This document shows, piece by piece, positions 6,094-43,508 of a stretch of DNA of 52,769 nt. The stretch lies in assembly GCA_013388985.1 (NCBI GenBank), contig JACAEF010000037.1, positions 1 to 52,769 on the forward strand. The letters run 5' to 3'. The notes under the pieces were generated by a model. It ran no database searches. It was not told the origin of the DNA and was given only the letters and a program-made list of their open reading frames with translations. The DNA is from Rhodocyclaceae bacterium (GTDB lineage: Bacteria; Pseudomonadota; Gammaproteobacteria; Burkholderiales; Rhodocyclaceae). The position numbers and the translations under genes were made by a program. The stretch's first letter is position 1. The number at the start of each line of letters is the position of its first letter.

Positions 6094-6236
6094 GCGCTTG
6101 TAAAAGTTACGTTGCGAGCGGGCTGAGGGCAAGGCGCACGGAGCGCAGCGACTGAGACATGACAATCTGTTAGGCGAGGGAGCGAGCACCGCGCAACACA
6201 GCCATCGGCCCGCGCAGCAGAAAATTTTACAAGCGC
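6094..6236 (-). repeat. ERIC-like palindromic element, copy 1
   Basis: Closed by a 12-bp perfect inverted repeat, GCGCTTGTAAAA (6094-6105) with TTTTACAAGCGC (6225-6236). The core is shared with copies at 6.9, 12.0, 33.5 and 43.3 kb but lies in reverse orientation to the first three. The central hairpin is TGACA (6160-6164) / TGTTA (6168-6172), with one G.T wobble. It fills the hemN to 6240 gap. Confidence 0.85.
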
Positions 6237-6239
6237 CCA

Positions 6240-6905
6240 GTGGATAATTCGTTTCTCGCGCTCTTCATCGTCGGCCTGCTCGGCGGCGGACACTGTGCCG
6301 GCATGTGCGGCGGCATCGTCGGCGCGCTCTCGCTGCAAGCGCCCAAGCAGGGCGCGGCGGCGGTGCTGGTGCATCTCGCTTACAACCTCGGGCGCATCGG
6401 CAGCTATGTGGCGGCCGGCCTCGTCGCCGGAGGGCTCGGCCAGGCGGCCGGCAACCTGCTCGCGCTGCAACACGGGCTCTATCTCTTCGCCAGCCTGATG
6501 CTGATCGCGATGGGGCTGTATCTGCTCGGCCTCACGCAGTTCCTGGCGCCGCTGGAACGCGGCGGCCAGACGTTGTGGCGACGCATCCAGCCGCTCACCG
6601 CGCGCTTCCTGCCGGTACGCGGGGTCGCACAAGCGCTTCCCTTGGGACTGCTCTGGGGGTGGCTGCCCTGCGGCCTCGTCTACAGCGCCTTGACCACGGC
6701 GCTCGCGGCCGGCTCGGCCGCCAAGGGCGCGTTGCTGATGCTCGCCTTCGGGCTGGGCACGTTGCCCAATCTGCTGCTCGCCGGCCTCTTGATGACGCGC
6801 TTTCGCCGCTTCGCCCAAGCCCGCGCCGTGCGCGTGGTTTCTGGTCTTCTGGTGCTCGGCTACGGGATAATTGGCTTCGTCAATTATTTCGGAAGCTTTG
6901 CATAA
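6240..6905 (+). CDS. TauE/SafE (DsbD_2-type) membrane protein
   Basis: A 221-residue integral membrane protein with about six helices, of the DsbD_2/UreH-like sulfite-exporter family often found beside copper ATPases and cytochrome-oxidase maturation genes. Seen: GLLGGGHCAGMCGGI at the N-terminus, and WGWLPCGLVYSAL in the second half, each a Cys/Gly-rich helix typical of the family. The start is GTG 6240; no ATG is near and no clear ribosome site is seen because a repeat element ends just upstream. The next gene is copA, supporting a role in copper or redox traffic to membrane oxidases (inference). The last 12 coding bases form the left arm of the next repeat element. Confidence 0.82.
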   Translation: MDNSFLALFIVGLLGGGHCAGMCGGIVGALSLQAPKQGAAAVLVHLAYNLGRIGSYVAAGLVAGGLGQAAGNLLALQHGLYLFASLMLIAMGLYLLGLTQFLAPLERGGQTLWRRIQPLTARFLPVRGVAQALPLGLLWGWLPCGLVYSALTTALAAGSAAKGALLMLAFGLGTLPNLLLAGLLMTRFRRFAQARAVRVVSGLLVLGYGIIGFVNYFGSFA

Positions 6906-7033
6906 GTTGCTGCGCGGGCGCATCGCTGCGTTGCGCGGTGCTCGGATGCTCGCCTATCTACTTGATATGTCTCGCATCCTGCGCTCCGGGCGCCTAGCGC
7001 TGCATCCCGCTCGCGGCCTTCTGCAGAGCTTCC
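6891..7033 (+). repeat. ERIC-like palindromic element, copy 2
   Basis: The outer stem is GGAAGCTTTGCA (6891-6902) with TGCAGAGCTTCC (7022-7033), 11 of 12 bp paired. The left arm is coding sequence for the last four residues of the upstream gene. The central hairpin is TATC (6955-6958) / GATA (6964-6967). The core (GCTGCGCGGGC, TTGCGCGGTGCTC, CTGCGCTCCGGGCGCC) is shared with the other copies. Confidence 0.85.
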
Positions 7034-7052
7034 TTTCCGTAGCTGAGAATAT

Positions 7053-9215
7053 ATGAAATCACGCAACGAGACCTGCGAGACCGTCGAGCTGGCGATCGGC
7101 GGCATGACCTGCGCCGCCTGCTCGGCGCGCATCGAGCGGCAACTGAACAAACTGCCGGGCGTCGAGGCGGTGGTGAATCTGCCGGCCGAGCGCGCCCACA
7201 TCCGTTTCGATCCGCATGCGGTCGATGTCGAGAAACTCATCGCCACCATCGTCAAGACCGGCTTCACGGCCACCCCCTCGACCGCGGATACCCGCGCCGA
7301 GGAAAAGGCGCGCAAGCAAGCGGCCTACCGCGCCGAGGTGAAGCGCTTCTGGATCGCGCTGGCGCTGACCTTGCCGCTGATCGCGCAGATGCCGTTCATG
7401 TTTGCCGCGGGCGGCGGCGTGCATGCCGACATCCTGCCGCGCTGGCTGCAATTCCTGCTGGCGACGCCGGTGCAGTTCTGGATCGGCTGGCGCTTTTATG
7501 TGGGCGGCTGGAACGCGCTGCGCGGCGGTTCCGGCAACATGGACGTGCTCGTCGCGCTGGGCACGACGATGGCCTGGGCCTACAGCACCGTCGTGCTGCT
7601 GTTCGGGCTGCACCAGCACGTCTATTTCGAAGCCTCGGCGACGGTGATCACGCTTGTGTTGATGGGCAAGATCCTCGAAGCGCGGGCGAAAGCCAAGACC
7701 GGCGCGGCGATCGAGGCGCTGATGAAGCTCGCCCCCGCGACCGCGCATGTCGAGCGCGAGGGCCGGCTCGTCGAGCTGCCGGTGAAAAGCCTGATCCCCG
7801 GCGACATCGTGATCGTGCGGCCGGGTGAGGCGGTGCCGGTCGATGGCGAGGTGGTGGCCGGCACTTCGAGCGCCAACGAGGCAATGCTGACCGGCGAGAG
7901 CCTGCCGGTGGCGAAAACCGTCGGCGACAAGGTGTTCGCGGCGACGATCAATGGCGATGGGCTGCTGCGCGTGAAGGCCACGGGTGTGGGCGCGCACACG
8001 CTGCTCTCCGGCATCATCCGCCTGGTCGAGGAGGCGCAGGGCTCGAAGGCGCCCGTGCAGCGGCTCGCCGACAAGGTCGCCGCGATCTTCGTGCCGGTGG
8101 TGGTGACGATCGCCTTGCTCACCTTCGGCGCCTGGTGGATGCTGGCCGGCGATTTCACGCAGGCGTTGATCAACGCGGTCGCGGTGCTGGTGATCGCCTG
8201 CCCCTGCGCGCTGGGGTTGGCGACGCCGACGGCGATCATGGTCGGCACCGGCCTGGGGGCGAAGGCCGGCATCCTGATCAAGAACGCGCAGGCGCTGGAG
8301 CTGGCGGAAAAGATCCAGGTGCTGGCCGTCGACAAGACCGGCACGCTGACCGAAGGCCGGCCGGTGGTGGTCGATATCAAAGTCGGCGCTGGTGATACGG
8401 CACCGGACGTGCTGCGCCTTGCCGCGAGCCTCGAACAGGGCTCGACGCATCCGCTCGCGGCCGCGCTGGTGGCCGAGGCGAAGCGGCAAGGCCTGACGCT
8501 CGAAGCGCCGCAGGAGGTGAGCGTCGAGGCGGGCAAGGGCATCCGCGGTACGGTGGGCGGCAAGACCGTGCGGGTCGGCTCGCCCGATTGGCTCGGAGCC
8601 GCGGCGGGCGATGCAGTGGGCAGCCAGATCGCGGTCGAGGTGGAGGGTCAGGTCGTCGGCGTGATCGGCGTCGCCGATCCGCTGCGGGAGAGCTCGAAGG
8701 CGGCGGTGGCGCGTCTGCGGCGTCTGGGCGTCGAGGTGGTGATGCTCACCGGCGACAACGCGGCGACGGCGGCCGAGATCGCCCGGCAGGCCGGCGTGGA
8801 CCGCTTCGAGGCGAACGTGCTGCCCGGCGACAAGGCGGCGCATGTCGCGGCGCTGAAGTCGTCTGGAAAGATCGTCGGCATGGCCGGCGACGGCATCAAC
8901 GACGCGCCGGCGCTGGCGGCGGCCGATGTCTCCTTCGCGATGGGCGCCGGGGCGGACGTGGCGATGCAGGCGGCCGACGTGACGCTGATGAAGAACGATC
9001 TGGGCGGCGTCGCCGATGCGATCTCGCTCTCGCGCGCCACCTTGGCGAAGATTCGCCAGAACCTGTTCTGGGCCTTCATCTACAATGTGATCGGCATTCC
9101 GGCCGCCGCACTGGGGTATCTGAACCCGGTGGTGGCCGGCGCGGCGATGGCGATGAGTTCCGTTTCGGTGGTGAGCAATTCGCTGCTGCTGAAGCGTTGG
9201 CGACCTGGGAGATGA
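7053..9215 (+). CDS. copA: Cu(I)-exporting P1B-type ATPase
   Basis: A 720-residue inner-membrane pump exporting Cu(I) to the periplasm with ATP. Domains in order: one N-terminal HMA domain with GMTCAAC (Cys20, Cys23), membrane helices, the actuator loop with TGES, the copper site CPC (residues 383-385), the phosphorylation motif DKTGT (Asp427), the nucleotide domain with STHPL, and the hinge GDGINDAP. All catalytic motifs are intact. The 25-bp repeat (8379-8403) encodes KVGAGDTA from residue 443, in a variable loop just after the phosphorylation site. The gene overlaps the chaperone gene that follows. Start ATG 7053; a repeat element occupies the upstream region. Confidence 0.95.
8379..8403 (+). 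repeat. 25-bp dispersed repeat, copy 2 (inside copA)
   Basis: Matches the consensus with N3 = GAT and a T at the Y position. In frame with copA as K-V-G-A-G-D-T-A, located in a variable loop. Confidence 0.8.
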
Positions 9216-9220
9216 GTGAG

Positions 9221-9427
9221 ATGGAAACGACGACGATCAAGATCACCGGCATGTCCTGCGGTGGGTGCACCGCCAGCGTGACGAAGGTGCTGACCGAAAC
9301 CGCCGGCGTGGCGAAGGTGGAGGTGCAGCTCACGCCCGGCCAGGCGACCGTGGAATACGATCCGGCCAGGGTGACGCGCGAAGCGCTCTGTGCGGCGATC
9401 GAGGACGCCGGATTCGGAGCGGAATGA
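9221..9427 (+). CDS. copZ: Copper chaperone, HMA domain
   Basis: A 68-residue ferredoxin-fold HMA protein that would carry Cu(I) to the CopA pump. The metal motif is GMSCGGC (consensus GMxCxxC), followed by the family pattern VTKVLTETAGVAKVEV and VEYDPARVTREAL. ATG 9221 is preferred because GGGAG lies 9 bases upstream; ATG 9212, overlapping the copA stop, would add three residues. It directly follows copA, so the pair is probably co-transcribed and translationally coupled. CopZ-type function follows from family and context. Confidence 0.88.
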   Translation: METTTIKITGMSCGGCTASVTKVLTETAGVAKVEVQLTPGQATVEYDPARVTREALCAAIEDAGFGAE

Positions 9428-9462
9428 AACGCGGGGAAATGTCGTGCTGCGTCGCAACAACC

Positions 9463-9468
9463 TATAAT
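9463..9468 (+). promoter_or_regulatory. -10 element of the ppa promoter
   Basis: TATAAT is an exact sigma-70 -10 hexamer 24 bp before the GTG start of ppa. No convincing -35 is seen at 16-18 bp spacing. Confidence 0.55.
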
Positions 9469-9491
9469 CACGCTTTTTGCTGGAGCTGACC

Positions 9492-10040
9492 GTGGCCTTG
9501 AACAATGTTCCCGCCGGCAAGGATCTGCCGAACGATTTCAACGTGATCATCGAAATCCCGATGCATTCGGACCCGATCAAGTACGAGGTCGACAAGGACT
9601 CGGGTGCGATCTTCGTCGATCGCTTCATGTCCACGGCGATGCACTATCCGTGCAACTACGGCTACATTCCGCATACCATCGCCGGCGACGGCGATCCCGT
9701 CGATGTGCTGGTCGTCACGCAGTTCGCTCTGCCGCCCGGCGTGGTGGTGCGCTGCCGGCCGGTCGGCATGCTGAAGATGACCGACGAGGCGGGCGAGGAT
9801 GCGAAACTGCTCGCGGTGCCGGTCGACAAGCTCACGCCGATGTATCGCGACATCGAGTCGCCGCGCGACTTCCCGCAGGTGGTGCTCGATTCCATCGCCC
9901 ACTTCTTCGCGCATTACAAGGACCTCGAGCCGGGCAAGTTCGTCAAGGTCGAGGGCTGGGTGGGCGCCGAGGAGGCCAAGCAGGAGATCATCGACGGCGT
10001 ACGCCGTTACAACGACGCGAAGCAAAAGCCCGCGTTCTGA
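9492..10040 (+). CDS. ppa: Inorganic pyrophosphatase
   Basis: A cytoplasmic family I enzyme hydrolysing pyrophosphate to two phosphates with Mg2+. Seen: N-terminal [36 protein letters not shown], the signature DGDPVDVLV with metal-binding aspartates, and [20 protein letters not shown]. The 182 residues fit bacterial enzymes. GTG 9492 is the start: GGAG lies 7 bases upstream and the protein then begins like its homologues; TTG 9477 would add five unrelated residues. Confidence 0.94.
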
Positions 10041-10055
10041 CATCCCGGCACCGAG

Positions 10056-11678
10056 ATGGCCCTGCGGATCGCCGTCGCCCAGATCAACTGCACGGTCGGC
10101 GACCTCGCTGGCAACGCGGCCCGCATCCTTGCCGCCGCCGATGAGGCGCATGCCCTGGGCGCCGATCTGCTGCTGACGCCCGAGCTGGCGCTCGCCGGCT
10201 ATCCGCCGGAAGATCTGCTGCTGCGGCCGGACTTCCATCGCGCCTGCGCGCGGGAATTGTCGGCGCTGGCACAACGGCTCCCGCTGCCGGCCGTCGTCGG
10301 CCATCCCGAGATGCGCGGCCCGCTGCGCTACAACGCCGCCTCGCTGCTGCGCGATGGGCGTGTCGAGGTCACCTATCACAAGCAGCGGCTGCCCAACAGC
10401 GAGGTGTTCGACGAGGAGCGCTATTTCGCCGCCGGCAGCGCGCCGTGCGTGTTCATGCTTGGCGAAACCGCGATCGGACTGGCGATCTGCGAGGACATCT
10501 GGCTGCCGGGCACGGTCGAAGCGACGCGCGCGGCCGGCGCCGAACTGCTCCTGGCGCTCAATGCGTCGCCGTTCCATATGAACAAGGCGGCGACGCGTCA
10601 GGCGGTGCTGCGCGAGCGCATCATGGGCAGCGGCATGCCGGCGGTCTATTGCAATCTGGTCGGCGGGCAGGACGAGCTGGTGTTCGATGGCGATTCGTTC
10701 GCGCTCGATGCCGCCGGTCGGCTGACCCACCAGCTGCCCGCCTTCGAGGAGGCGCTGGCGATCGTCGAATATGCCGATGGCCATCTGCTGCCGGGCATGC
10801 AGGCCGCGCCGTTGTCTGTCGAGGCGTCGGTCTATGCCGCGCTGTGCCTCGGCGTCTCCGATTACCTCGGCAAGAATGGCTTTCCCGGCGCGATCATCGG
10901 CCTGTCGGGCGGCATCGATTCGGCGCTCACCCTCGCCGTCGCCGTCGATGCGCTGGGTGCGGACAAGGTGCGCGCGGTGATGATGCCCTCGCCTTGGACG
11001 GCGCAGATGAGTCTCGACGATGCGCGCGAGATGGTGCGACGGCTCGGTGTGCAGTACGACGAAATTCCGATCGCCGGGGCGATGGAGCAGTTCGCCACGA
11101 TGCTCGCGCCGGTGTTCGCGCCGCTGGGCCCGAAGCCGGCCTGGGACACCACCGAGGAAAACATCCAGGCGCGCATCCGCGGGCTGCTGCTGATGGCGCT
11201 CTCCAACCGCACCGGCCGTATCCTGCTCACCACCGGCAACAAAAGCGAGATGGCCGTCGGCTATGCAACGCTCTACGGCGACATGGCCGGGGGCTTCGCG
11301 GTGCTCAAGGACGTCTTCAAGACCTTCGTCTATCGGCTGGCGCATTACCGCAACTCGCGCTCCGAGGTGATCCCGCACAACATCCTCGTGCGCGCGCCTT
11401 CGGCCGAGCTCAAGGCCAATCAGACCGATCAGGATTCGCTGCCGCCGTATGAGGTGCTCGACGCGATCATCGAAGCCTACATGGAGCGCGATGAGAGCCC
11501 GCGGGAAATCATTGCCCAGGGCATGCCGGAAGCCGACGTGCGGCGCGTGATCACGCTGCTGAAGAAGAACGAATACAAGCGCCGCCAGGCGCCGCCCGGC
11601 GTGCGCGTCACCCGTCGCGCCTTCGGCAAGGACTGGCGCTATCCGATAACATCGCGTTATCCCGACGAATGGAGTTGA
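10056..11678 (+). CDS. nadE: Glutamine-dependent NAD+ synthetase
   Basis: A 540-residue enzyme making NAD+ from deamido-NAD, ATP and glutamine. The N-terminal nitrilase-type amidotransferase domain (about residues 1-250) shows the Glu-Lys-Cys triad in TPELALAGYPPEDL, YHKQRLPN and GLAICEDIW. The C-terminal synthetase domain has the PP-loop SGGIDSAL near residue 287 and TTGNKSEMAVGYATLYGDMAG. The two-domain form frees the enzyme from needing ammonia. glnB starts 3 bases after the stop, so nitrogen sensing and a glutamine-using enzyme are probably in one transcript. Confidence 0.94.
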   Translation: MALRIAVAQINCTVGDLAGNAARILAAADEAHALGADLLLTPELALAGYPPEDLLLRPDFHRACARELSALAQRLPLPAVVGHPEMRGPLRYNAASLLRDGRVEVTYHKQRLPNSEVFDEERYFAAGSAPCVFMLGETAIGLAICEDIWLPGTVEATRAAGAELLLALNASPFHMNKAATRQAVLRERIMGSGMPAVYCNLVGGQDELVFDGDSFALDAAGRLTHQLPAFEEALAIVEYADGHLLPGMQAAPLSVEASVYAALCLGVSDYLGKNGFPGAIIGLSGGIDSALTLAVAVDALGADKVRAVMMPSPWTAQMSLDDAREMVRRLGVQYDEIPIAGAMEQFATMLAPVFAPLGPKPAWDTTEENIQARIRGLLLMALSNRTGRILLTTGNKSEMAVGYATLYGDMAGGFAVLKDVFKTFVYRLAHYRNSRSEVIPHNILVRAPSAELKANQTDQDSLPPYEVLDAIIEAYMERDESPREIIAQGMPEADVRRVITLLKKNEYKRRQAPPGVRVTRRAFGKDWRYPITSRYPDEWS

Positions 11679-12020
<342 letters not shown>

Positions 12021-12022
12021 TC

Positions 12023-12165
12023 GCTTGCGAAAATTTCTGCTGCGCGGGCCGATGGCTGCGTTGCGCGGTGCTCACTTCCTCGCCTAGCTGCACAGCTATG
12101 TCTCGGTCGCTGCGCTCCGGGCGCCTTGCCCTCGGCCCGCTCGCGACGAAATTTTTTTCGCAAGC
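12023..12165 (+). repeat. ERIC-like palindromic element, copy 3
   Basis: The outer stem is GCTTGCGAAAA (12023-12033) with TTTTCGCAAGC (12155-12165). The central hairpin is TAGCT (12085-12089) / AGCTA (12094-12098). An inner pairing is visible between GCGGGCCGA and TCGGCCCGC. It fills most of the gap between glnB and the methyltransferase gene. Relative to copy 4, the outer-stem difference TGCG / TGTG is matched on the other side by CGCA / CACA. Confidence 0.88.
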
Positions 12166-12211
12166 TCTGAGCCGCAATCCACTCTTTGTGAATGAAAGGT
12201 AACACGTCGGC

Positions 12212-12964
12212 ATGGACAAGCCCGTCTCGAAGGAATCGCGCCGCGCGCAATTGTTCGGTCATTACTGGAAGAACGATCTCGATCCCGTCTTCACCGACGT
12301 CGCCAGCTATTACGACAATGCCAACCAGGTCGCCAGTCTCGGCTTGTGGAACTGGTTCCTCCGTCATCACATGGATCTCGTCGAGACGCGGCCAGGCATG
12401 CGCTCACTCGACATCTGCGCCGGCACCAATGCGGTCGGCATCGCGCTCTTGAAGAAGGAGCCGACGCTGGAGGCCTACGCGATCGACCGCAACGTCGCGA
12501 TGCAGACGGTCGGCCGCGAGCGGGCGCAAAAGCGCGGCCTGCATATCCGCGCGACGATCGGCGACGTGCACAAGCTGCCCTATCCGGACGGTCATTTCGA
12601 CATCGTCACGCTGCAATGGGCGGCGCGTCATCTGCAACTCGACATCGTGCTCGACGAGGTGCGGCGCGTGCTGAAGCCAGGAGGGCATTTCCACCATTGC
12701 GACATGCTGCGGCCGCCGCATCCGCGCGTGGCGAAGCTCTATTTCGGCTATCTACGTTTCTGCCTGAATTTCACTGCGACGATCTTCCGCAGCGGCGAGC
12801 CGGCACTCAACTGCCGCAAATATTTCATCGACGTGCTCGACAACTTCTATTCGCCGGAAGAGTTTTCCGATCTGCTGCGCGCCCACGGCCTGGTCAACGT
12901 GGTGCACAAGAGCCTGTTGGCCGGCATGATCGGCGTGCATCGGGCGCAGAAACCCGCAGAGTGA
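12212..12964 (+). CDS. Class I SAM-dependent methyltransferase (UbiE/MenG-like)
   Basis: A 250-residue soluble methyltransferase. The SAM-binding fold is shown by MRSLDICAGTNAVGIALL (motif I near residue 67), AIDRNVAM (motif II), DVHKLPYPDGHFDIVTLQWAARHL (motif III, with the UbiE/MenG-like LPYPDGHFD) and VRRVLKPGGHFHHCDML. The family methylates quinone rings, but motif I is NAVG-type rather than the usual GTGD, and the C-terminal half is unlike canonical UbiE, so the substrate is uncertain. It is followed 1 base later by an uncharacterised gene, suggesting a two-gene unit. Confidence 0.75.
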   Translation: MDKPVSKESRRAQLFGHYWKNDLDPVFTDVASYYDNANQVASLGLWNWFLRHHMDLVETRPGMRSLDICAGTNAVGIALLKKEPTLEAYAIDRNVAMQTVGRERAQKRGLHIRATIGDVHKLPYPDGHFDIVTLQWAARHLQLDIVLDEVRRVLKPGGHFHHCDMLRPPHPRVAKLYFGYLRFCLNFTATIFRSGEPALNCRKYFIDVLDNFYSPEEFSDLLRAHGLVNVVHKSLLAGMIGVHRAQKPAE

Positions 12965-12965
12965 C

Positions 12966-14738: not shown

Positions 14739-14801
14739 GATGGGTCTCCTAGAGAGAGTTGACTATGCATCACAATATAAGCCGTCGCGCATGTGACGAC
14801 C

Positions 14802-14818: not shown

Positions 14819-14842
14819 GCCGTCTGAAAATCGTCTCTGGAG

Positions 14843-32720: not shown

Positions 32721-32745
32721 GTGTGGCGCTTTTCTGCAGCCTTGC

Positions 32746-32896: not shown

Positions 32897-33487
32897 ATGT
32901 CCAAACTGAAGTTGCTGTTGTCTGCCGGCCTGCTGCTGCAGGTCATGGGTTCTTTTGCTGCCGAGCCGACGGCCGATGCCGATCTGCGCAAGGCAGCCAG
33001 ACTGCACCTGGGCGGCGAGACGGCCGCGGCGGTGCAGATCTGGAAGAAATGGGCGCAGCAGGGCGACGTCGATGCCGCCTACAACCTCGCGGTGATCCAT
33101 CAGTATGCCGATGGCGTGGCTTACGATGCCGCGCAGGCGCTCGCCTGGTATCGCTTCGCCGCGGAACGCGGCGACAAGGCGGCGCAATACGCGCTTGGCC
33201 TGATGTATCTGAAGGGCGAAGGCGTGCCTGCCGACGAGGCCAAGGCGCATGAATGGTTCACCCGCAACCGGAAGGAACATCTGCACCATCAGCACGATGC
33301 GCGATTCCTGCAGTGGCAGAAACAGGCGCGCGAGCTGATCGAGGAACGCGACCGGCGCGAAGCGCTCGCCGCCTCGCGCCAGAACGACGCGCGCATCCTG
33401 GCCGAGCTCCAGCGGCGGGCCGGCATCGCGGCATCGGCACAACCTGCGCGGGACGATACACGTCTGGCGGCGCTGCGCGGCGACTGA
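32897..33487 (+). CDS. Exported Sel1-repeat (tetratricopeptide-like) protein
   Basis: A 196-residue protein with a signal peptide (MSKLKLLLSAGLLLQVMGSFAA) and two to three Sel1-like repeats: AAAVQIWKKWAQQGDVDAAYNLAVIHQYADGVAYD, then AQALAWYRFAAERGDKAAQYALGLMYLKGEGVPAD, and a partial third. The C-terminal third is a charged helix (QARELIEERDRREALAASR). Such repeats form a protein-binding scaffold. GGAG lies 8 bases before the ATG. It is divergent from the copper receptor; a functional link is not shown. Its stop codon is the first part of a palindromic repeat element. Confidence 0.8.
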   Translation: MSKLKLLLSAGLLLQVMGSFAAEPTADADLRKAARLHLGGETAAAVQIWKKWAQQGDVDAAYNLAVIHQYADGVAYDAAQALAWYRFAAERGDKAAQYALGLMYLKGEGVPADEAKAHEWFTRNRKEHLHHQHDARFLQWQKQARELIEERDRREALAASRQNDARILAELQRRAGIAASAQPARDDTRLAALRGD

Positions 33488-33632
33488 GAGCTTGTGAAAA
33501 TTTCTGCTGCGCATCCCGATGGCTGTGTTGCCCGGAGCTCGCTCCCGCGCCTAACTGATAGTTATGTCTTGGTCGCTGCGCTCCGTGCGCCTTGCCCTCG
33601 GCCCGCTCGCGACGAAATTTTTCACAAGCTCT
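33487..33632 (+). repeat. ERIC-like palindromic element, copy 4
   Basis: The outer stem is AGAGCTTGTGAAAA (33487-33500) with TTTTCACAAGCTCT (33619-33632), 14 bp perfect and beginning on the last base of the upstream stop codon. The central hairpin is TAACT (33552-33556) / AGTTA (33560-33564). The core matches copy 3 closely. Confidence 0.88.
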
Positions 33633-33654
33633 GAGCCACGGTGCGGCGGCCGCA

Positions 33655-36278: not shown

Positions 36279-36285
36279 GGTGGCC

Positions 36286-38448
36286 TCAACGGAAGTCATA
36301 GCGATAGGTCAGCATCACGGTGCGCGGCGAGGCAGCCATGTAGGTCACCTTGCCGGTGGTGTCTTTCTTGACCTCCATCGCGTAGAGCTTGTCGAACAGG
36401 TTGTCGACGTTGAGCGTCAGGCTGTGGCCTTGCCGCTCATAGCCGACCGAGAGATTGGTCACCCATTCCCAGCCTTGATATTTCTCGGTGTTGGCGTTGT
36501 CGAGCCAGTATTCGCCCCAGGTGTTCGAGGACAGGCGCGCTTTCCAGCCGGTGGGCGATTTCCAGCCGAGGAACAGGCCGTATTGCTGGTGCGGGATGAA
36601 CGGCACGGTCTTGCCGGCGCGGTCCATGTTGACGGTCGTCATGCCGACGCGCACCGGCTCGCTGAACGACAGATAGGTGTAGTCGGTGAGCGACAGATAG
36701 CCGCCGAACTCGAAACCTTCCTTCAGCGCCATGCTGCCCGAGAACTCGAAGCCCTTGCGGCGCGTCTTGCCGGCATTGACATAGCTGTTGACGCCACCGG
36801 TGGTGATCGTGACGATCTCCTTGTCGACGTCGTTGAGGTAGATGCTGGTGTCGAACTGCCAGCCCTGGCCACGGCCTTTGAGGCCGATCTCCTTGTTGCG
36901 CGAAACGGGAGCGTCGAGCGCCGGATTGCTCGAAAACTCGCTTTGCGAGGGCACCTGTCCGGCCTGCGCCAGCATGCCGAACAGATGCACGCCTTCGAGG
37001 AGCTGGTAGCTCACCGCGAGCTTCGGCGCCGGCAGGTTGTAGGTCTTCTCGGTGTGCGTCACGCCGGCGCCGGCGACGTATTTGCCGGTCGCATAATCGT
37101 ATTTCCAGAACTGCTGGTTGTCGTCGGTGAATTTGATGCTATCAAAGCGAAAGCCCACATCGACGATCCAGCGCGCGGCCGGGCGCCAGGATTCCTGCAG
37201 ATAAACGCCGGTGAGCAGGCTCGTCGCGTCGTCGATTTCCGCCAGGCGGCCTTTCGCGTCCGAGCAGGTGGCGAGGATGCGACCGGTCGCCGTGGCCGAA
37301 TCGCGGCACTGGCCACCGCTCGTCGTCGTGATCACGCGGCTGTATTGATACTTGCGCGAATCGGGCGTGCGTTCCTGGCGTACGGTGAGGCCGCCGACCA
37401 GGGTCCCGTCGGTATGCCGCCAGTGGGCTTCGAGGTCGGCGCCCAGGTTCCACACCCATTGTTCGGTTTCGTTGATGATGCCGGTGACCGGGTGGTAGTG
37501 ATACCAGGTGTTGTAGTAGAGCCGCGGCTTGAAAGTGAAGTCGCCGACTTCCTTTTCAAGCTTGGTGTTGAAGAACCACACCTTCGAATAGCGGCCGGAG
37601 TGTTTCCACGGCTCCGAGGTGTCCGTCTGTTTGCCGGTAGCGAGAAATTGCTGGAACAGCGCGGCATCCATCGCGCCGGGCAGCTGGGCATTGGCTTCCG
37701 CATAGGAGAGCTCGCTTTCCCAGGTCGCATCGTTGCCGAGCTGCAAGCCGTGTTTCAGCGACAGCTGGGTGGTGTCGAACTGGTTCCAGACGCGCCAGCT
37801 GTTGTCCATCGTCCGGTAGGTGCCGGTGAACGCCAGTGCCTGGTCGCCGAAGGTCTTGCCATAGCGCAGATGGTAATTCTGCGTATCGTCGTTGCCGTAA
37901 CCGATCTTCAGGTTGTTGGCGCGCTCGTCGAAGACCGATTTCGAGAAGATCTGGATCGCCCCGCCCGCGGCCCCGGCGGCGAACAGGTTGCCCGGGCCTT
38001 TGGCGACTTCGATGCGCTCGATGTCCTGGGTGTCGACGAAATCGAGGCGGGTGAAGCTGTCCGGGTCGGAAAGCGGTACGCCGTCGCGCAGCACCTCGAT
38101 CTCGCGGATGCCATAAGGCGCCTTCAACCCTGCGCCGCGAATGATCAGCCGTGCGTCGAAACCGCCGTTCTTGCTATCGACATAGACGCCGGGCATCTCC
38201 TGCAGGGCTTCCTTCATGTTGAACATCTTCTTTTCCTGCAGCGTCTCCTTGCCGACGACGCTGATCGCCTGGGGCACCTCGCCGGTGGCGCGCGCCTCGC
38301 GCGTCGCGGTCACCGAAATCTCGTCGAGCTTCTGTGCCGTATCCGTCGCCCAGACCGGCGCGGCTGCGACCGAGATGAACAAGAGGAAGCCGTGATGACG
38401 GCGGAGGGGCACGCGGTCAGGTCGGACCTGATACGTGTTGCTGGACAT
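36286..38448 (-). CDS. TonB-dependent outer-membrane receptor
   Basis: A 720-residue receptor. An N-terminal signal (FLLFISVAAAPVWA) is followed by a TonB-box-like DEISVTATREARA, a plug (QEMPGVYVDSKNGGFDARLIIRGAGLKAPYGIREIEVLRDGVPL) and a barrel ending ...VMLTYRYDFR. It lacks the OprC CPNHM motif. Substrate unknown; DUF4198, polyferredoxin and TauE partners and the shared promoter signals point to a metal or metallophore imported anaerobically. GGAGG lies 8 bases before the ATG. First gene of a four-gene minus-strand operon. Confidence 0.85.
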   Translation of the reverse strand: MSSNTYQVRPDRVPLRRHHGFLLFISVAAAPVWATDTAQKLDEISVTATREARATGEVPQAISVVGKETLQEKKMFNMKEALQEMPGVYVDSKNGGFDARLIIRGAGLKAPYGIREIEVLRDGVPLSDPDSFTRLDFVDTQDIERIEVAKGPGNLFAAGAAGGAIQIFSKSVFDERANNLKIGYGNDDTQNYHLRYGKTFGDQALAFTGTYRTMDNSWRVWNQFDTTQLSLKHGLQLGNDATWESELSYAEANAQLPGAMDAALFQQFLATGKQTDTSEPWKHSGRYSKVWFFNTKLEKEVGDFTFKPRLYYNTWYHYHPVTGIINETEQWVWNLGADLEAHWRHTDGTLVGGLTVRQERTPDSRKYQYSRVITTTSGGQCRDSATATGRILATCSDAKGRLAEIDDATSLLTGVYLQESWRPAARWIVDVGFRFDSIKFTDDNQQFWKYDYATGKYVAGAGVTHTEKTYNLPAPKLAVSYQLLEGVHLFGMLAQAGQVPSQSEFSSNPALDAPVSRNKEIGLKGRGQGWQFDTSIYLNDVDKEIVTITTGGVNSYVNAGKTRRKGFEFSGSMALKEGFEFGGYLSLTDYTYLSFSEPVRVGMTTVNMDRAGKTVPFIPHQQYGLFLGWKSPTGWKARLSSNTWGEYWLDNANTEKYQGWEWVTNLSVGYERQGHSLTLNVDNLFDKLYAMEVKKDTTGKVTYMAASPRTVMLTYRYDFR

Positions 38449-38514
38449 GGATTCGCCTCCCTTTGCGATGGTTCCGAAAGGACGCGAGCCTATTGCTTAG
38501 GTCAGAGGGCGGGA

Positions 38515-38531
38515 AGTGACAAATCGTCGCA
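38515..38531. promoter_or_regulatory. Palindrome TGCGACA-N3-TGTCGCA, copy 3 (degenerate)
   Basis: AGTGACA-AAT-CGTCGCA: the right half is conserved, the left half has two changes. The centre lies 75 bp before the receptor start and 40.5 bp from the FNR-box centre, exactly as at 32704. Confidence 0.65.
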
Positions 38532-38556
38532 GGTGGTGGGGTTTTTGCACGCCGGC

Positions 38557-38570
38557 TTGACTTCGATCAA
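38557..38570. promoter_or_regulatory. FNR box of the second receptor operon
   Basis: TTGAC-TTCG-ATCAA lies within a longer inverted repeat GGCTTGA...TCAAGCC, and starts 9 bp beyond the stop of the upstream TauE gene. It is one mismatch from the FNR consensus. Confidence 0.72.
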
Positions 38571-38578
38571 GCCGGGCT

Positions 38579-39271
38579 TCAAGCCACCAGCGACCACATC
38601 ACCAGGAAGTAGCGCAGCCCCTGCCAGAAGGTGGAGATGCCCAGCGCGATCACGGTGAGCGCCGCGGCCTTCAGGAGCGCGCCGCGCAAGGTGGGCCCGA
38701 GCTTGCCGAACAGCACGGACGCCGAGAGCATCGAAGGCAGCGTGCCGGCGCCGAAGGCGAGCATCAACAGCATGCCTTCCGGCGGGCTGGGCGCGGTGGT
38801 GGCTTTGACCGCCATCGCCATCGTCATCGAGCAGGGCATCAGGCCATTGATCGCGCCGCCGATCAGCGAGCCGATGACCGGCCCCTTCTGCGTCGCGCCC
38901 ACGAACTGCCGGCGCAGCCAGGCGAGCGGCGCGAAGCCCCAGGCATTGCGGATCGGCGCGAGACCGAGCAGATCGAAGCCGAGCAGGATCACCAGCACGC
39001 CGGCGATGATCTGCAGGACGCCCTGCGCCAGGCCGAGCCGGCCGGTGGACACCAGCACCGCGCCCAAGAGGGCGGCCAGCAGGCCGACGATCGCATAGAC
39101 CGCGATGCGCGCGCCGTGATAGGCGAGGATGGCGGGGAAGGGTGCCGTCCTGCCAGCGCCGACTTTCATGAAGAAGGCCGAGACCAGCCCGCCGCACATG
39201 CCGAGGCAGTGCCCGCTGCCCAGCAAGCCGACCAGGAAGGCGGCGCCGTAGGAGAACTCGATGGGGCTCAC
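38579..39271 (-). CDS. TauE/SafE (DsbD_2-type) membrane protein
   Basis: A 230-residue membrane protein paralogous to the one at 6240. Seen: FLVGLLGSGHCLGMCGGLVSAFF at the N-terminus, and GGAINGLMPCSMTMAMAV in the second half, with about six helices. The start is GTG 39271, overlapping the stop of the copper-ATPase gene (GTGA). The sense-oriented 25-bp repeat encodes KVGAGRTA from residue 36, in the loop after helix 1. The repeated pairing of this family with Cu ATPases, in both loci of the window, supports a shared role in copper supply to respiratory enzymes (inference). Confidence 0.82.
   Translation of the reverse strand: MSPIEFSYGAAFLVGLLGSGHCLGMCGGLVSAFFMKVGAGRTAPFPAILAYHGARIAVYAIVGLLAALLGAVLVSTGRLGLAQGVLQIIAGVLVILLGFDLLGLAPIRNAWGFAPLAWLRRQFVGATQKGPVIGSLIGGAINGLMPCSMTMAMAVKATTAPSPPEGMLLMLAFGAGTLPSMLSASVLFGKLGPTLRGALLKAAALTVIALGISTFWQGLRYFLVMWSLVA
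39142..39166 (-). repeat. 25-bp dispersed repeat, copy 7 (inside TauE/SafE gene)
   Basis: On the minus strand: consensus with N3 = AGG, in the gene's sense, read K-V-G-A-G-R-T-A. Confidence 0.82.
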
Positions 39272-41721
39272 CGCCTTTGCAGCCGCAGCGAGTTGGTGAC
39301 GACCGAGACCGAGCTCATCGCCATCGCCGCCGCGGCGATCATCGGATTGAGCCGGCCCGCCGCCGCGACGGGGATGGCGACGACGTTGTAGCCCAGCGCC
39401 CAGAACAGGTTCTGGCGCACGATCGCCATCGTGCGACGCGAGAGCTCGATGCCGGCGGCCACGCGCGCGATGTCGCCGCCGACCAGCGTGACGTCGGCCG
39501 CCTCGACCGCGATGTCGGCGCCGCCGCCGATCGCAAAGCCCACTGCCGCCGCTGCCAGCGCCGGCGCATCGTTGATGCCGTCGCCGATCATGCCGACTTT
39601 CCTGCCTTCCGCTTTCAGGCGTTCGACCAGCGCGAGCTTGTCGGCCGGCGTGGCGCGCGCGATCACTTCCTCGATGCCGACTTCGCGCGCGACGTGGCGC
39701 GCGGCGGCCTCGACATCGCCGGTGCACATCACCGTGCGCAGGCCGAGGCGGTGCAGCAGCGCGATGGCTTCCTTCGCGCCTTCACGCGGCGCGTCGGCGA
39801 TCGCGAACAGCGCGACGCAAGCGTCGTCCAGGGCGACGAACACCGGCGTCTTGCCTTGCCGGGCGAAGGCTTCGGCCTGGGCGGCCTGCGCGCGGCAGTC
39901 GATGCCGGCGGCTTCGAGATAGGCGGCGTTGCCGATGCGGATGATCGTGCCGTCGCTTTGCGCCTGCACGCCCTGGCCGGGCGTCGCCGTGAAATCGAAA
40001 ATCGGCGCTGGGGAGATGGCAAGATGAGCGGCACGGGCCCGGCAGTAGACATTGATCGCGCGGGCGAGGAAGTGCTCCGAATGCTGCTCGACGCCGGCGA
40101 CCCGCGCGAGCAGCCGTGCTTCGTCGATGCCCTCGGCGGGGAGGAAGTCGGTGACGACGGGCTTGCCCGCGGTGATGGTGCCGGTCTTGTCGAACACCAG
40201 CGTGTCGAGCGTCGCGGCGGTCTCCAGCGCCTCGCCGTTCCTGATGTAGATGCCGCGCCGCGCCGCTTCGCCCATCGCGACCATGATCGCGGTCGGCGTG
40301 GCCAGCCCCAGCGCGCAGGGGCAGGCGATCAAGAGCACCGCCACCGCGTGCGAGAGCGCGCGGGAGAGCGGATGGCCGGCCGCGAGCCAGCCAACGAGCG
40401 TGGCGGCGGCGACGGCGCCTACGGCAGGGACGAAGCGCGCCGAGATGCGGTCGGCGAGTTTTTGCACCGGCAGCTTCGATCCTTGCGCATGATCGACCAG
40501 CTTGACGATGCCGGCGAGCACCGTGTCCGGGCCGATGGCGGTGACCTGCAGCGTGAAGCTGCCGTTGCGATTGAGCGTGCCGCCGACGACCTTATCGCCC
40601 GTGGCTTTGCCGACCGGCAAGGGCTCGCCGGTGACGAGCGATTCATCGATGCTGCCGCTGCCGTCGATGACCACGCCATCGGTCGGCACTTTGTCGCCGG
40701 GGCGCACGCGCAGCACGTCACCCACCCGCACCTCGTCGATGCCGACCGTCTCGTCGCCGGCCGCGGTCACAAGGATCGCCGTGTCGGGCTGCAGCTCGAT
40801 GAGCTTGCGGATCGCCTCGGAGGCCTTGCCCTTCGCGCGCTCTTCCATGTAACGCCCGCCGAGCACGAAGGAAACGATCGCCGCGGCCGACTCGAAATAG
40901 ACGTGGTGCTGCATCGAGAAGACGCCGGGCAGGCTGTAGAGATAGGCCGCGCCGGCGCCCATCGCGATCAGCGAGTCCATGTTCGCCTCGCGCGCTTTGG
41001 CGAGCGCCCAGGCCTTCTTGAAGATGTCCCGGCCCGGGCCGGCGAGCACATAGGTCGAAACCGCCAGCTCCATCATGCGCAGCGCCAGCGAGCGATGCAT
41101 CAGCATGCCGGAGATCATCACCGGCGTGGTCGCCAGCGCGGCATAGATGAGCTTTTGGCGGGCCTCGGCCAGCCGCGCCTTCTCGCGCTCGACGACGAGC
41201 CGCCGCTGCGAGAGCGTGTCCATCGGCCGCGCCTGGTAGCCGAGCTTTTTCACTGCCGCGAAGAGTTCGTCTTTCGACAGGCGCCCCTTCACCGTCACCG
41301 TCTCGGCGGCGTAATTGACGGCGACGGATTCGACGCGCGGATCGCGCTTCAAGGACAGCTCGATCAGCGCCGCGCAGGAGGCGCAGGTCATGCCCTCGAC
41401 GGCGGCGAGGCATTCCTGCACGGGCTGGTTCGGATCGAGCGTCAAAGTCGGCGTTGGCGAGACGGCACGCTTGCGGCCGGCCTGCACCAGATTGCCGATC
41501 ACCGCGTCGAGGAGTGCGACGAGGCGCGCCTCGGGCAGCTGCGCCGCGTCGTACTGGACCGTCACCGAGCCGATCGCCGGCACCGCGCGCACCTCGCGGA
41601 TCGCGGCATGCTTCCTCAGCAGGATCTCGACCAGGTAGCAGCGCTCCTCGTCCTTGACGAGCGATGGCGCAAGGATGCGCAGGCGCCAGGGCAGGCGGTG
41701 GACGATGCGGTAATGCTTCAC
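39268..41721 (-). CDS. Cu-type P1B ATPase with degenerate extra N-terminal domain
   Basis: An 817-residue membrane pump. Domains: an N-terminal HMA-like fold without Cys-x-x-Cys (residues 1-80), a true HMA domain with GMTCASC near 110, an actuator with TGEP, CPC in [13 protein letters not shown], the phosphorylation motif DKTGT, and GDGINDAP. Odd: the usual SEHPL is SEHFL, so the His that positions ATP is kept but the Pro is lost. Two antisense 25-bp repeats lie in linkers (encoding AVSPTPTL and ISPAPIF). Start GTG 41721. The position in a maturation-like operon suggests a CcoI/CtpA-type pump supplying cuproproteins rather than detoxification (inference). Confidence 0.88.
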   Translation of the reverse strand: MKHYRIVHRLPWRLRILAPSLVKDEERCYLVEILLRKHAAIREVRAVPAIGSVTVQYDAAQLPEARLVALLDAVIGNLVQAGRKRAVSPTPTLTLDPNQPVQECLAAVEGMTCASCAALIELSLKRDPRVESVAVNYAAETVTVKGRLSKDELFAAVKKLGYQARPMDTLSQRRLVVEREKARLAEARQKLIYAALATTPVMISGMLMHRSLALRMMELAVSTYVLAGPGRDIFKKAWALAKAREANMDSLIAMGAGAAYLYSLPGVFSMQHHVYFESAAAIVSFVLGGRYMEERAKGKASEAIRKLIELQPDTAILVTAAGDETVGIDEVRVGDVLRVRPGDKVPTDGVVIDGSGSIDESLVTGEPLPVGKATGDKVVGGTLNRNGSFTLQVTAIGPDTVLAGIVKLVDHAQGSKLPVQKLADRISARFVPAVGAVAAATLVGWLAAGHPLSRALSHAVAVLLIACPCALGLATPTAIMVAMGEAARRGIYIRNGEALETAATLDTLVFDKTGTITAGKPVVTDFLPAEGIDEARLLARVAGVEQHSEHFLARAINVYCRARAAHLAISPAPIFDFTATPGQGVQAQSDGTIIRIGNAAYLEAAGIDCRAQAAQAEAFARQGKTPVFVALDDACVALFAIADAPREGAKEAIALLHRLGLRTVMCTGDVEAAARHVAREVGIEEVIARATPADKLALVERLKAEGRKVGMIGDGINDAPALAAAAVGFAIGGGADIAVEAADVTLVGGDIARVAAGIELSRRTMAIVRQNLFWALGYNVVAIPVAAAGRLNPMIAAAAMAMSSVSVVTNSLRLQRR
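39998..40022 (+). repeat. 25-bp dispersed repeat, copy 8 (degenerate, antisense in Cu ATPase)
   Basis: AAAATCGGCGCTGGG-GAG-ATGGCAA, four changes from the consensus; same antisense phase as copies 6 and 9. Confidence 0.6.
41444..41468 (+). repeat. 25-bp dispersed repeat, copy 9 (antisense in Cu ATPase)
   Basis: Consensus with T at the first Y and N3 = GAG; read A-V-S-P-T-P-T-L in the linker between the two HMA-type domains. Confidence 0.82.
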
Positions 41722-41725
41722 GAAG

Positions 41726-42265
41726 TCATGTCTTGCGATAACGGACCAGCAGGAAGACGAAATAGAACACCGTCAGCCAGGCATTGGTGTATTTGACCGG
41801 CTCCTTGATCCAGTGATTGACGATCAGGTCCCAATGCACCTTGATCAGATAGAAGGCGACGATGTCGTTCGTGAAGTTGGTGATCGCCTTCTCGGTCGTG
41901 GCATTGGCGACGAGGGGACGGAAACGCGCCGGCGCGGCGGCGATCAATCGGGCGCGCAGATCGTCGAGACGTTCGGCCAGCCCGACGGTTTCGGGAACGG
42001 ATCCCGGCACGCTGCCTGCCGCCGGTCCGGCCGGCAACACAGACTTGATGCGCCGCGCGATGTCGGCAGGGGCGAGCCGCTGCGGGTCGAAGCGCACCGC
42101 GAGCTTGCCTTCGACCGTCAGCCAGCTCGTGCGCAGCACGCCCGGCAGGGCCTGCAGGCTCTTTTCGAGCGTCGCGCCGAAGTCGGGCGTGCGCAGCGCG
42201 GCGGGCAGCCGCAGCCGCAGGTAGCCTTCCGCGCGCTGCAGGACTTCGATGGCGGCGGCATCCAT
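41726..42265 (-). CDS. HMA-like domain protein with C-terminal membrane helix
   Basis: A 179-residue protein. Residues about 10-75 (YLRLRLPAALRTPDFGATLEKSLQAL, then VLRTSWLTVEGKLAVRFDP) resemble the ferredoxin-like HMA fold without the metal-binding Cys pair, similar to the N-terminal domain of the ATPase encoded next. A helical linker follows, then NFTNDIVAFYLIKVHWDLIVNHWIKEP and a membrane helix (AWLTVFYFVFLLV). GAGG lies upstream of the ATG. It may dock on the ATPase or heterodimerise with its degenerate domain; that is a hypothesis. Confidence 0.65.
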   Translation of the reverse strand: MDAAAIEVLQRAEGYLRLRLPAALRTPDFGATLEKSLQALPGVLRTSWLTVEGKLAVRFDPQRLAPADIARRIKSVLPAGPAAGSVPGSVPETVGLAERLDDLRARLIAAAPARFRPLVANATTEKAITNFTNDIVAFYLIKVHWDLIVNHWIKEPVKYTNAWLTVFYFVFLLVRYRKT

Positions 42266-42275
42266 CGCGGCGGCC

Positions 42276-42635
42276 TCAGCCTTGCGTCGGTGGCGCGGCC
42301 GGCGGAGCGGCTTCGGCCGCCGGCCCCTGGGCCTCGGCGAGCAGATCGTCGAGGTTTTCCTTCTGGTGGGCGACGAAATCCTTGCCGATGCCGGTGAGCT
42401 TGCTCACGGTCTGGAGGATTTCCTTCTCATACTTGAAGAGGAGATAGCCGGCGGCGACGCCCGCGGCGAGAAAGACCAGTGGGTTGCGCAGCAGGCTCGT
42501 CCCGGCGCCCAGCAGCCCCTTGCCGGCGGCGTAGCCGCCGACGGCCATCATCGAGCCCGTCGCCATCGGATGCGCCATCATGTTGCCCATCATCTGCGGC
42601 ATCTGGCGGGCCGCTTCCGTCATCGCTGTGTTCAT
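42276..42635 (-). CDS. Small Met-rich single-pass membrane protein
   Basis: A 119-residue protein. The N-terminus is methionine-rich (MPQMMGNMMAHPMATGSMM), followed by a Gly-rich hydrophobic region and one clear helix (NPLVFLAAGVAAGYLLF), then a charged helix and an Ala/Pro tail. Met clusters next to a membrane segment are common in copper-trafficking proteins, and the neighbours are a Cu ATPase and metal-binding proteins. AGGAAG lies upstream of the ATG. No family recognised by name. Confidence 0.68.
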   Translation of the reverse strand: MNTAMTEAARQMPQMMGNMMAHPMATGSMMAVGGYAAGKGLLGAGTSLLRNPLVFLAAGVAAGYLLFKYEKEILQTVSKLTGIGKDFVAHQKENLDDLLAEAQGPAAEAAPPAAPPTQG

Positions 42636-42820
42636 GGTTTCTTCCTTTCGGTTGCAGGAGCCATAGTTTGCACCGGCTGTGCGGGCGGCGCATTGATCTC
42701 GTTCAACATTTGATAGATTCCCCGGCAGCCTTCGCAGCAGAAATTGAGCGTGCCGTGCGGCGTCTCCAGCGTGAAGGGCTGCTTGCCGCAATCGAGCGCG
42801 CACAGGTCACAGGCGATCAT
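42632..42820 (-). CDS. Small cysteine-rich metal-binding protein (ATPase N-terminal type)
   Basis: A 62-residue protein with Cys pairs CDLC and CCEGCRGIYQML, matching the small Cys-rich domain found at the N-terminus of CcoI/FixI-type copper ATPases, here encoded as a separate gene. The ATG overlaps the stop of the TlpA-like gene (ATGA) and its end overlaps the next start. As a stand-alone domain upstream of an ATPase that lacks it, it may be the missing module acting in trans (inference). Confidence 0.75.
   Translation of the reverse strand: MIACDLCALDCGKQPFTLETPHGTLNFCCEGCRGIYQMLNEINAPPAQPVQTMAPATERKKP
42693..42706. promoter_or_regulatory. Possible internal FNR box
   Basis: TTGAT-CTCG-TTCAA, one mismatch, inside the small metal-binding gene but 64 bp before the start of the next gene, the usual distance in this window. 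Possible internal promoter; coincidence cannot be excluded. Confidence 0.3.
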
Positions 42821-43296
42821 TGCAGCAGCGCCTGGATGTGACGCTCGAACAGCGCCTCGTCGGCTTCGCCGACGATCTTGCCGCGCACGATGCCCTTCGC
42901 GTCGACGAAGAACGTGGTCGGCAGGCCGACCACGCCGTAGGACTTGGCGATCTTCGACTGCTCGTCCATCAATGACGGATAGCCGACGCCGAGCTTCTCC
43001 ATGAAGGCGGTCACGGTCTTTTTGTCCTGGCCGACGTTGATCGCGATCACCGCCAGCCGCTGAGCGCGGTGGCGCGCCGCGACCTGGTCGAGTAGCTTCA
43101 TCTCCGGCGCGCAGAAGCGGCACCAGTCGGCCCAGAAGCGGATCACCACCGGCTGGCCGGTCCAGGCGGCGGGAAAATGCGCGGCCATGCCGTCGGCGCG
43201 CACGGTCTGGAAGGTCGGCGCGATGTCGCCGACGTTGAGATTCTTCGGCGGTCCGCTGCCGCCGCAGGCGGCGAGCGCGATAGCGAACAATGTCAT
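42817..43296 (-). CDS. TlpA/ResA-like thioredoxin-fold lipoprotein
   Basis: A 159-residue exported thiol-disulfide protein. The lipobox LAAC (Cys12) follows a short hydrophobic signal (TLFAIALAAC). The thioredoxin fold has the active site WADWCRFCAPE, then LAVIAINVGQDKK and GVVGLPTTFFVDAKG with the cis-Pro. TlpA-like proteins reduce apo-cytochromes or the CuA-site cysteines of oxidases and copper chaperones. ATG 43296 is taken as the start because it begins the signal; the open frame upstream runs through a palindromic repeat element. No ribosome site is visible, as the repeat's arm directly precedes the ATG. Confidence 0.85.
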   Translation of the reverse strand: MTLFAIALAACGGSGPPKNLNVGDIAPTFQTVRADGMAAHFPAAWTGQPVVIRFWADWCRFCAPEMKLLDQVAARHRAQRLAVIAINVGQDKKTVTAFMEKLGVGYPSLMDEQSKIAKSYGVVGLPTTFFVDAKGIVRGKIVGEADEALFERHIQALLQ

Positions 43297-43297
43297 C

Positions 43298-43508
43298 AAG
43301 AAACGCTGAAGAAAGCAGCGAGCGGGAAGGGATGCAAGGCGCACGGAGCGCAGGATGCGAGAAAACGAGCCGAAGGCGAAGTTTCGGCGAAGACTCACAT
43401 GAGCGTAGCGCATGTTACGTCGAAGCCACATACCTAGAAGGTAGGCGAGCATCCGAGCACCGCGCAACACAGCAGACCACCCGCGCAGCAATTTATTCAG
43501 CGTTTCTT
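43298..43508 (-). repeat. ERIC-like palindromic element, copy 5, with nested insertion
   Basis: The outer stem is AAGAAACGCTGAA (43298-43310) with TTCAGCGTTTCTT (43496-43508), 13 bp perfect and touching the stop codon of the upstream gene. The central hairpin is TACCT (43430-43434) / AGGTA (43438-43442). About 60 bp (roughly 43369-43428) are extra relative to the other copies and resemble the element after rplS. Confidence 0.85.

Follow-up and report, generated by a model that had tools for sequence, protein, structure and literature searches.

A hairpin core joined to several classes of ends: a probable superfamily of miniature transposable elements in Rhodocyclaceae and other bacteria

Families of miniature inverted-repeat transposable elements (MITEs) are usually described with one set of ends, and the ends of Tn3 transposons are long. 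In one review (PMC10969869), MITEs are typically AT-rich and lose their repeats as copies decay, and the bacterial ones (Correia, ERIC, RUP, QMITE and Chunjie) are short and non-coding, with inverted ends, direct repeats and a capacity to form hairpins. Here we describe an element alike in these respects, found in five copies in a 52,769-nt stretch of DNA from a Rhodocyclaceae bacterium (contig JACAEF010000037.1 of assembly GCA_013388985.1, our contig C126; hereafter the window). Its core, unlike the typically AT-rich MITEs of that review (PMC10969869), is GC-rich, and it occurs in several bacterial lineages. Tn3-derived inverted-repeat miniature elements (TIMEs) are likewise miniature and mobilized in trans, with mosaic forms named in one title (PMC4133298, PMC13367494). 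The ends here measure 13–17 bp and so differ from the long Tn3 ends. Correia, ERIC and Chunjie were compared with our element by description rather than by alignment; ERIC and Correia elements are recognized by a family consensus and a TA target, and the duplications of our element are 3–5 bp. The chief departure from the usual MITE family is that one core is combined here with about six classes of ends and with duplications of several lengths. We consider it likely that the element is a MITE in which one core is joined to several types of end, the arms being terminal inverted repeats and several transposases the movers. Taken as a whole, it is probably a MITE superfamily with exchangeable ends, mobilized by several DDE transposases, those of the IS5 family among them.

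The element is short (about 140–213 bp in nearly all copies read, with one partial match of 110 bp, and thus under 500 bp) and contains no transposase gene, as is characteristic of MITEs. Between the arms lies a GC-rich hairpin core of about 110 nt. Read from tip to tip, the order is an arm of 13–17 bp with an A-rich end, TGCTGCGC..., a long imperfect stem, a small loop of the form TAxC-N-GxTA, the returning strand of the stem, ...GCTCGCG and the opposite arm. Blocks of the stem vary in pairs (GCTCCC/GGTCGC, GGATGC/GCATCC and GGAACC/GGTTCC).

First, the element is multi-copy, dispersed and insertion-polymorphic, again as in MITEs. A covariance model built from 29 copies and searched at E ≤ 1e-3 gave 61 matches in the source assembly (2.9 Mb in 156 contigs), the six weakest of which (42–66 bits) are doubtful or decayed; nearly all of those aligned have paired arms, so the five copies that had been noticed in the window are not a chance resemblance. 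In two congeners (G017 and G002), the model gave 76 and 61 matches, also with a weak tail. When the 61 were set against 70 copies examined in the two congeners (of 137 matches), a site was shared in place for only one, and two sites, described below, are empty in relatives. Some copies in the source assembly lie near contig ends (C131, C141, C152 and C6); the assembly may therefore break at or near the repeats, and copy number may be underestimated.

Beyond the genus, a DNA search of 61 genomes, the source genome included, found a match in 17, and an exact 20-mer from the core, GCTGCGTTGCGCGGTGCTCG, occurs in at least 112 stretches among one-per-species genomes. The 80 matches listed come from, among others, Halomonadaceae, Marinobacterium, Polaromonas, Gallionella, Tepidiphilus, Azovibrio, Pseudomonas, Methylocaldum, Lysobacterales, Trichlorobacter/Geobacteraceae and Candidatus Troglogloeales. 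Among these listed matches the core is thus present in records of Beta- and Gammaproteobacteria, Geobacterales and Nitrospirota, with lineages taken from record titles; several records are metagenome bins in which mis-binning is possible, and one locus (L167) looks like a chance match. At E 1e-5, one copy from the window (copy D below) had no match among phages and a single partial match, on a Nitrosomonas plasmid, among plasmids.

Second, the arms fall into classes, and several classes carry direct repeats of their own length. In the source genome and the two congeners (61 and 70 copies, respectively), 123 of 131 copies could be assigned to about six classes and 8 could not. The class tips are GAGCTTGTGAAAA (I), GGAAACGCTGAATAA (II), GGGCACCTCGAATAA (III), GAAACCCCTGCGAAAC, also as GAAACCCCTGCGAAA (IV), GGAACCTCTGAATAAC (V) and CAGGCTGTTGAAAAAC, also as CAGGCTGTTGAAAAA (VI). 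The initial annotation had held that only the fold of the arms is kept, and that further copies with arms of one fixed sequence would speak against this. Within classes such arms exist, with 43 copies carrying the GAGCTTGTG arm or its variants and 37 the GGAAACGCTG arm; this is not so in Polaromonas, where the arms are nearly all different.

We counted exact direct repeats adjoining the tips and compared them with 2,000 permutations, which keep target preference, so that any excess reflects a match of left and right flanks within individual copies. In class I, a 3-bp repeat flanks 21 of 43 copies and none has one of 4 bp or more (permuted mean 12.3, maximum 20; 0/2,000 reach the observed count); the repeats are TGA/TGA or TCA/TCA, once TCT/TCT. 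Class II has 4-bp repeats in 14 of 36 copies (mean 1.7, maximum 6; 0/2,000) and class IV 5-bp repeats in 9 of 16 (mean 0.6, maximum 4; 0/2,000), or 11 of 24 when merged with copies caught by the class V probe. In class VI, 6 of 10 copies have a 4-bp repeat (permuted 2.5; 17/2,000). The class II duplications are YTAR-like; those of class I (3 bp) and class IV (5 bp) are not. In the source genome alone, class II again stands out (8 of 20 against 0.36 expected), and class I (6 of 15 against 4.25) is not significant because TGA is nearly fixed there; in this count the anchor failed to assign five class I copies and put one right tip (C143) in the wrong place. The class I result rests on G017, a genome in which TCA/TCA is found as well. 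Terminal inverted repeats and target-site duplications, the marks of a MITE, are thus both found in this genus; the duplication was not found in Polaromonas.

These footprints bear on another reading, in which the copies would be palindromes like the repetitive extragenic palindromes and bacterial interspersed mosaic elements (REP/BIME), moved by a REP-associated tyrosine (RAYT, Y1) transposase. Y1 transposition leaves no duplication, and direct repeats of 3, 4 and 5 bp together with conserved inverted-repeat tips are footprints of DDE enzymes. Our copies are short palindromes, lie mostly at gene ends and reach high copy number, and REP/BIME units (PMC2817692) are palindromic and numerous too. 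Unlike those units, which measure 20–40 nt and carry no duplication, the unit here is about 145 bp long with target duplications and does not belong with them; we give this reading almost no credence.

The copies and associated features in the window are as follows.

6094–6236, minus strand: copy A, a class I variant with GCGCTTGTAAAA arms at both ends
6891–7033, plus strand: copy B, with arms GGAAGCTTTGCATAA / TTCTGCAGAGCTTCC
6887–6890 (left) and 7034–7037 (right), plus strand: direct repeat TTTC flanking copy B
12021–12167, plus strand: copy C, class I, with arms TCGCTTGCGAAAA / TTTTCGCAAGCTC
12018–12020, plus strand: TGA, at once the stop codon of a P-II gene and the left direct repeat of copy C (right repeat at 12168–12170)
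33488–33631, plus strand: copy D, class I, with arms GAGCTTGTGAAAA / TTTTTCACAAGCTC
33485–33487, plus strand: TGA, at once the stop codon of a Sel1-repeat gene and the left direct repeat of copy D (right repeat at 33632–33634)
About 43299–43507, minus strand: copy E, class II, with arms AGAAACGCTGAATAA / TTCTTCAGCGTTTCT
43363–43428 (approximate bounds), minus strand: side-hairpin module within copy E

The five positions first given were accurate to within 1–2 bp, the closing arms quoted for them were correct (in full, GCGCTTGTAAAA, GGAAGCTTTGCATAA, TCGCTTGCGAAAA/GAGCTTGCGAAAA, GAGCTTGTGAAAA and AGAAACGCTGAATAA), and all five copies do share a core (A and D 86% identical, C and D 87%, B and C 81%). 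The arms are self-complementary and do vary, as had been proposed. Their description as different at each locus overstates the variation within the window, since three of the five, at 6094, 12021 and 33488, are variants of (G/T)(A/C)GCTTG(T/C)(G/A)AAAA. Copy A departs twice from the class I consensus, each time in both arms, and its direct repeat is not intact (TGG/GGA). Copy E lacks an exact direct repeat (TGAA/TGAT) and is longer than the others because it contains an additional side hairpin, also present elsewhere (C29:2008 and C140:32192, with a diverged form in L371). The P-II gene upstream of copy C spans 11682–12020 and has a PF00543 match.

Third, sites that are occupied in one genome lack the arms in relatives. 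Among 17 relatives compared at the copy C site, 15 are informative; 14 of these have no class I arm within 100 nt downstream of the stop codon, and the fifteenth, G017, has a core-deleted copy at the same TGA, with arms GAGGCTGTG.../...CACAGCCCC and TGA on both sides. At the site of another copy (L031, flanked by CTAG/CTAG), the arm is present in 0 of 18 relatives read over 100 nt: four (G016, G006, G003 and G014) end in a single TAG, G004 has other sequence between the genes, and G002 and G017 read CGGATACGCTG just downstream, apparently the end of the neighbouring gene and weakly like a class II tip.

Both explanations offered by the initial annotation for locus-specific arms can be held against these sites. 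In one, insertion takes place into hairpins that already exist, terminators for example, and the outer stem belongs to the target. The arms do vary between copies while mostly remaining paired, above all in Polaromonas, where 22 of the 25 copies read have paired arms, the outer 8–10 bp are peculiar to nearly every locus, and a direct repeat adjoins the ends in 0 of the 22, an absence that also counts against the MITE reading. In the Rhodocyclaceae genus this explanation is not borne out: each copy's own arm is missing in the informative relatives at two loci, one and the same arm is found at dozens of sites unrelated to each other, the direct repeats lying beyond it, and a consensus terminator scan of positions 5900–12400 called 4 sites, where shuffles gave 3.8, and placed none of them within copies A–C. 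We regard it as unlikely. In the other, adjacent sequence is copied into an inverted arm on insertion, which would explain self-complementary arms specific to a locus, as in Polaromonas. The recurrence of arms at unrelated sites in this genus, with the direct repeats lying outside them, speaks against such copying. So does the comparison with relatives, which at both insertion sites tested show neither arm next to the stop codon, and we judge this explanation very improbable.

Fourth, candidate movers are suggested by their ends. IS5 elements target YTAR, and the class II tips and YTAR-like duplications resemble IS5-family elements of related genera, with the differences that our element contains no transposase gene and that its other classes have 3- or 5-bp duplications. 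The likeness of class II and V tips to IS5-family ends was seen in other genomes only, all of them other genera of the same family. The examples are L222 (1217 bp, ends GGAAGCGCTGA, CTAG on both sides, NF033581 match at E 1.1e-103), L225 (ends GGAAGGTCTGCA/GGAACCTCTGCA, flanks TTAG/TTAA, NF033581 at E 2e-106), L227 (ends GGACGCGCTGA, flanks TTAG/TTAA) and L224 (ends GGACACRCTGA, flanks CTTG/CTAG), the NF033581 test covering L222 and L225. The arm GAACGTGTTTTAAAAGC of a copy in a Methylovulum record (L146) similarly resembles the ends AGAACGTGTTTTGAAAGTC of L269, an element with a DUF4096 match. One locus taken as a possible autonomous class I element, L420 (G017:C1:1955600-1958400), was rejected: it is an IS110-family insertion nested in a copy. 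Its RNA-guided transposase gene (NF033542 at E 2e-73, PF01548 and PF02371) interrupts a copy bounded by class I ends, apparently at the tip of its hairpin.

Fifth, the same core is found with different ends. Cores 94–96% identical, and at most 96.3%, belong to different classes; one such pair is L387, of class IV with TCATT on either side, and C130:66991, of class II. On a tree of 109 core rows (14 of 123 classed copies were dropped by length, and some class IV rows are labelled V), the end classes need 24 changes, where the least possible is 5 and the shuffled mean 61.6; strongly supported branches force only 1–3 changes per class. The reverse is seen as well: class I ends in G017 enclose quite different hairpins (L402–L405 and L427), and 49–57 bp forms there are almost without a core (L421–L423). 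Core-deleted forms of about 50 bp in G017 (L311, L421 and L422) share the junction CTGCGCTCGCGACG, which fits a deletion between short direct repeats located where the hairpin begins. Three kinds of side-hairpin module recur at like core positions in class I and class II elements. In the source genome such modules were seen at 43363–43428 of the window and at C29:2008, C140:32192, C6:87952, C149:37536 and C144:6920; further loci are L395, L401, L408, L410, L411, L415 and L371.

If the element is a MITE of this kind, its arms would be cut by DDE transposases supplied in trans, with IS5-family enzymes moving class II (YTAR-like target) and some other classes, and separate transposases serving separate classes. 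The core would be handed between sets of ends by recombination between elements or by replacement of ends, and targets with TGA, TAG or TAA would put copies on stop codons with the gene left intact. Likeness of the two arms may follow from the need of a transposase to bind both, or from repair templated on the hairpin, in which one arm is copied onto the other. A broader version, which we put forward tentatively, has a modular, deeply spread hairpin surviving by changing movers, with core, side hairpins and ends separately exchangeable and a single passenger lineage carried by at least three or four groups of transposases. An active process, either templated repair inside the hairpin or selection for the fold, would match the arms irrespective of sequence, so far that almost each Polaromonas copy has a matched pair of its own.

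That the arms are matched within a copy can be seen inside the classes. Among 36 distinct class I arm pairs, a set that includes seven extra G017 copies, the same departure from consensus occurs in both arms at 14 positions against 2.7 in shuffles (0/5,000 reach this), and among 24 distinct class II pairs at 9 against 2.4 (2/5,000), counts somewhat inflated by copies related by descent. Pairing is imperfect: 46 departures in class I and 51 in class II affect one arm only, many of the latter being one fixed left/right difference at position 13. The class IV figure (23 against 8) was set aside because its set held copy B, which does not belong. Across 68 copies from many genera (12 of 80 GTDB loci having been dropped before scoring), the mean score is 10.4 for a copy's own right arm and 5.8 for the arms of other copies, and the own arm reaches at least 8.5 in 44 of 68. 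It is the strict best of the 68 for only 17 copies, because a class is common to many copies and, in others, an arm is missing or has diverged. The proposal that fold rather than sequence is kept therefore holds in part: changes are paired in the stem and within class I and II arms, but arm sequence recurs within classes.

The intuition behind that proposal has substance, above all in Polaromonas. In the copies examined there (L280–L309, from genomes G102–G106), all seven paired copies of G102 differ in their arms, and several copies occupy the same sites in different species. At such orthologous sites, two arm pairs have changed on both sides, C–G to T–A (L295/L283) and A–T to G–C (L298/L299), and changes that break or weaken pairs also occur, as read by eye. 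The Polaromonas copies may be old, decayed ones that still pair, to which their shared sites between species lend support. The matching of arms may reflect selection on the fold, a transposase binding both ends, templated repair or, in Polaromonas, even the target.

Beside the missing duplications of Polaromonas, several observations weigh against the view that the element is a MITE with exchangeable ends moved by several transposases. Among 12 copies caught by the class V probe, two have a 4-bp repeat and two, misfiled members of class IV, a 5-bp repeat; like the repeats of class III (1 of 5), these are too few or too ill-defined for testing. An exact repeat is absent in about 40 to 60% of class I, II, IV and VI copies. 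The source assembly has no PF01609 or PF13340 transposase, so no mover was seen there, and a partial search of the loci at our disposal brought up no autonomous element whose ends match class I, III, IV or VI. In the core tree, 51 of 101 inner branches are open, and the number of end switches is not fixed by it. Finally, co-departure of arms shows no excess in class III (1; 1,209/5,000 reach it) or class VI (0), each with 4 distinct arm pairs.

The core itself covaries. Over 36 core pairs in 87 sequences, standard pairs fill 89.0% of cells against 82.0% when shuffled and 29–55% when slid. Changes on both sides are seen at 13 of these pairs and amount to 167 cells, against 59.9 shuffled and 24–57 slid. 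The unslid structure has an advantage here, the reference fold having been taken from one of the 87 rows, and the rows are related to one another. An original set of 103 was reduced by nine class VI rows, four diverged rows of class V/IV and three of class I. From the first alignment RNAalifold predicted small hairpins, the fold used in model R1; the pair count used the long hairpin of single copies. The loop pair is UA in 42 rows, AU in 25, CG in 18, GC in 1 and unpaired in 1. Certain mismatches are kept in nearly all rows (for example, at columns 51/98, T in 85 and 79 of 87), so the stem is not simply homogenized.

The copies are also unevenly placed relative to upstream genes. The upstream coding strand, called with a codon score whose training set was a few genes of the window, could be assigned in 52 of 61 copies and agrees with the element's strand in 40 against 12 (P = 1.3e-4; 9 not called); in 27 of the 40, the element starts no more than 1 nt from a stop codon. 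Downstream gene strands are even (22:22; 17 not called). TNA and YTAR can contain stop codons that the duplication restores, which explains the position on stop codons. By class, same and opposite orientations number 14:1 (I), 15:3 (II), 1:2 (III), 3:4 (IV) and 2:2 (V). In classes I and II, orientation to the upstream gene is nearly fixed despite the inverted-repeat ends, and TNA/YTAR targets do not explain it. Greater stability of the plus-strand RNA was tried as the cause of this bias and rejected, the plus strand being better in 16 of 57.

Covariation and orientation could together mean that the structure itself is selected, as a structured RNA, a bidirectional terminator or a protector of mRNA 3′ ends, with mobility secondary, a reading compatible with that of a MITE. 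The two in-place double changes in Polaromonas, and the A-rich left and T-rich right ends, which may resemble a bidirectional terminator, point the same way. These double changes number only two and stand beside pair-breaking ones, the orientation bias is confined to classes I and II, the transcribed strand is not the more stable one, and the window has no Rfam match (0 at gathering scores). Selection of this kind is possible but, in our view, doubtful.

In the MITE reading that we prefer, passenger and mover appear to evolve separately, with one core, several end classes and different footprints, in a group whose families are normally defined by their ends. The spread of the core over several bacterial lineages makes it a widespread repeat, for which searches by topic and by the letters of core and arm motifs found no description or name in the accessible literature, which takes in few subscription journals. 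The element offers a natural system for how non-autonomous elements change transposase and why two ends stay matched, and for whether a hairpin that moves to the ends of genes can take on a function as a 3′ structure.

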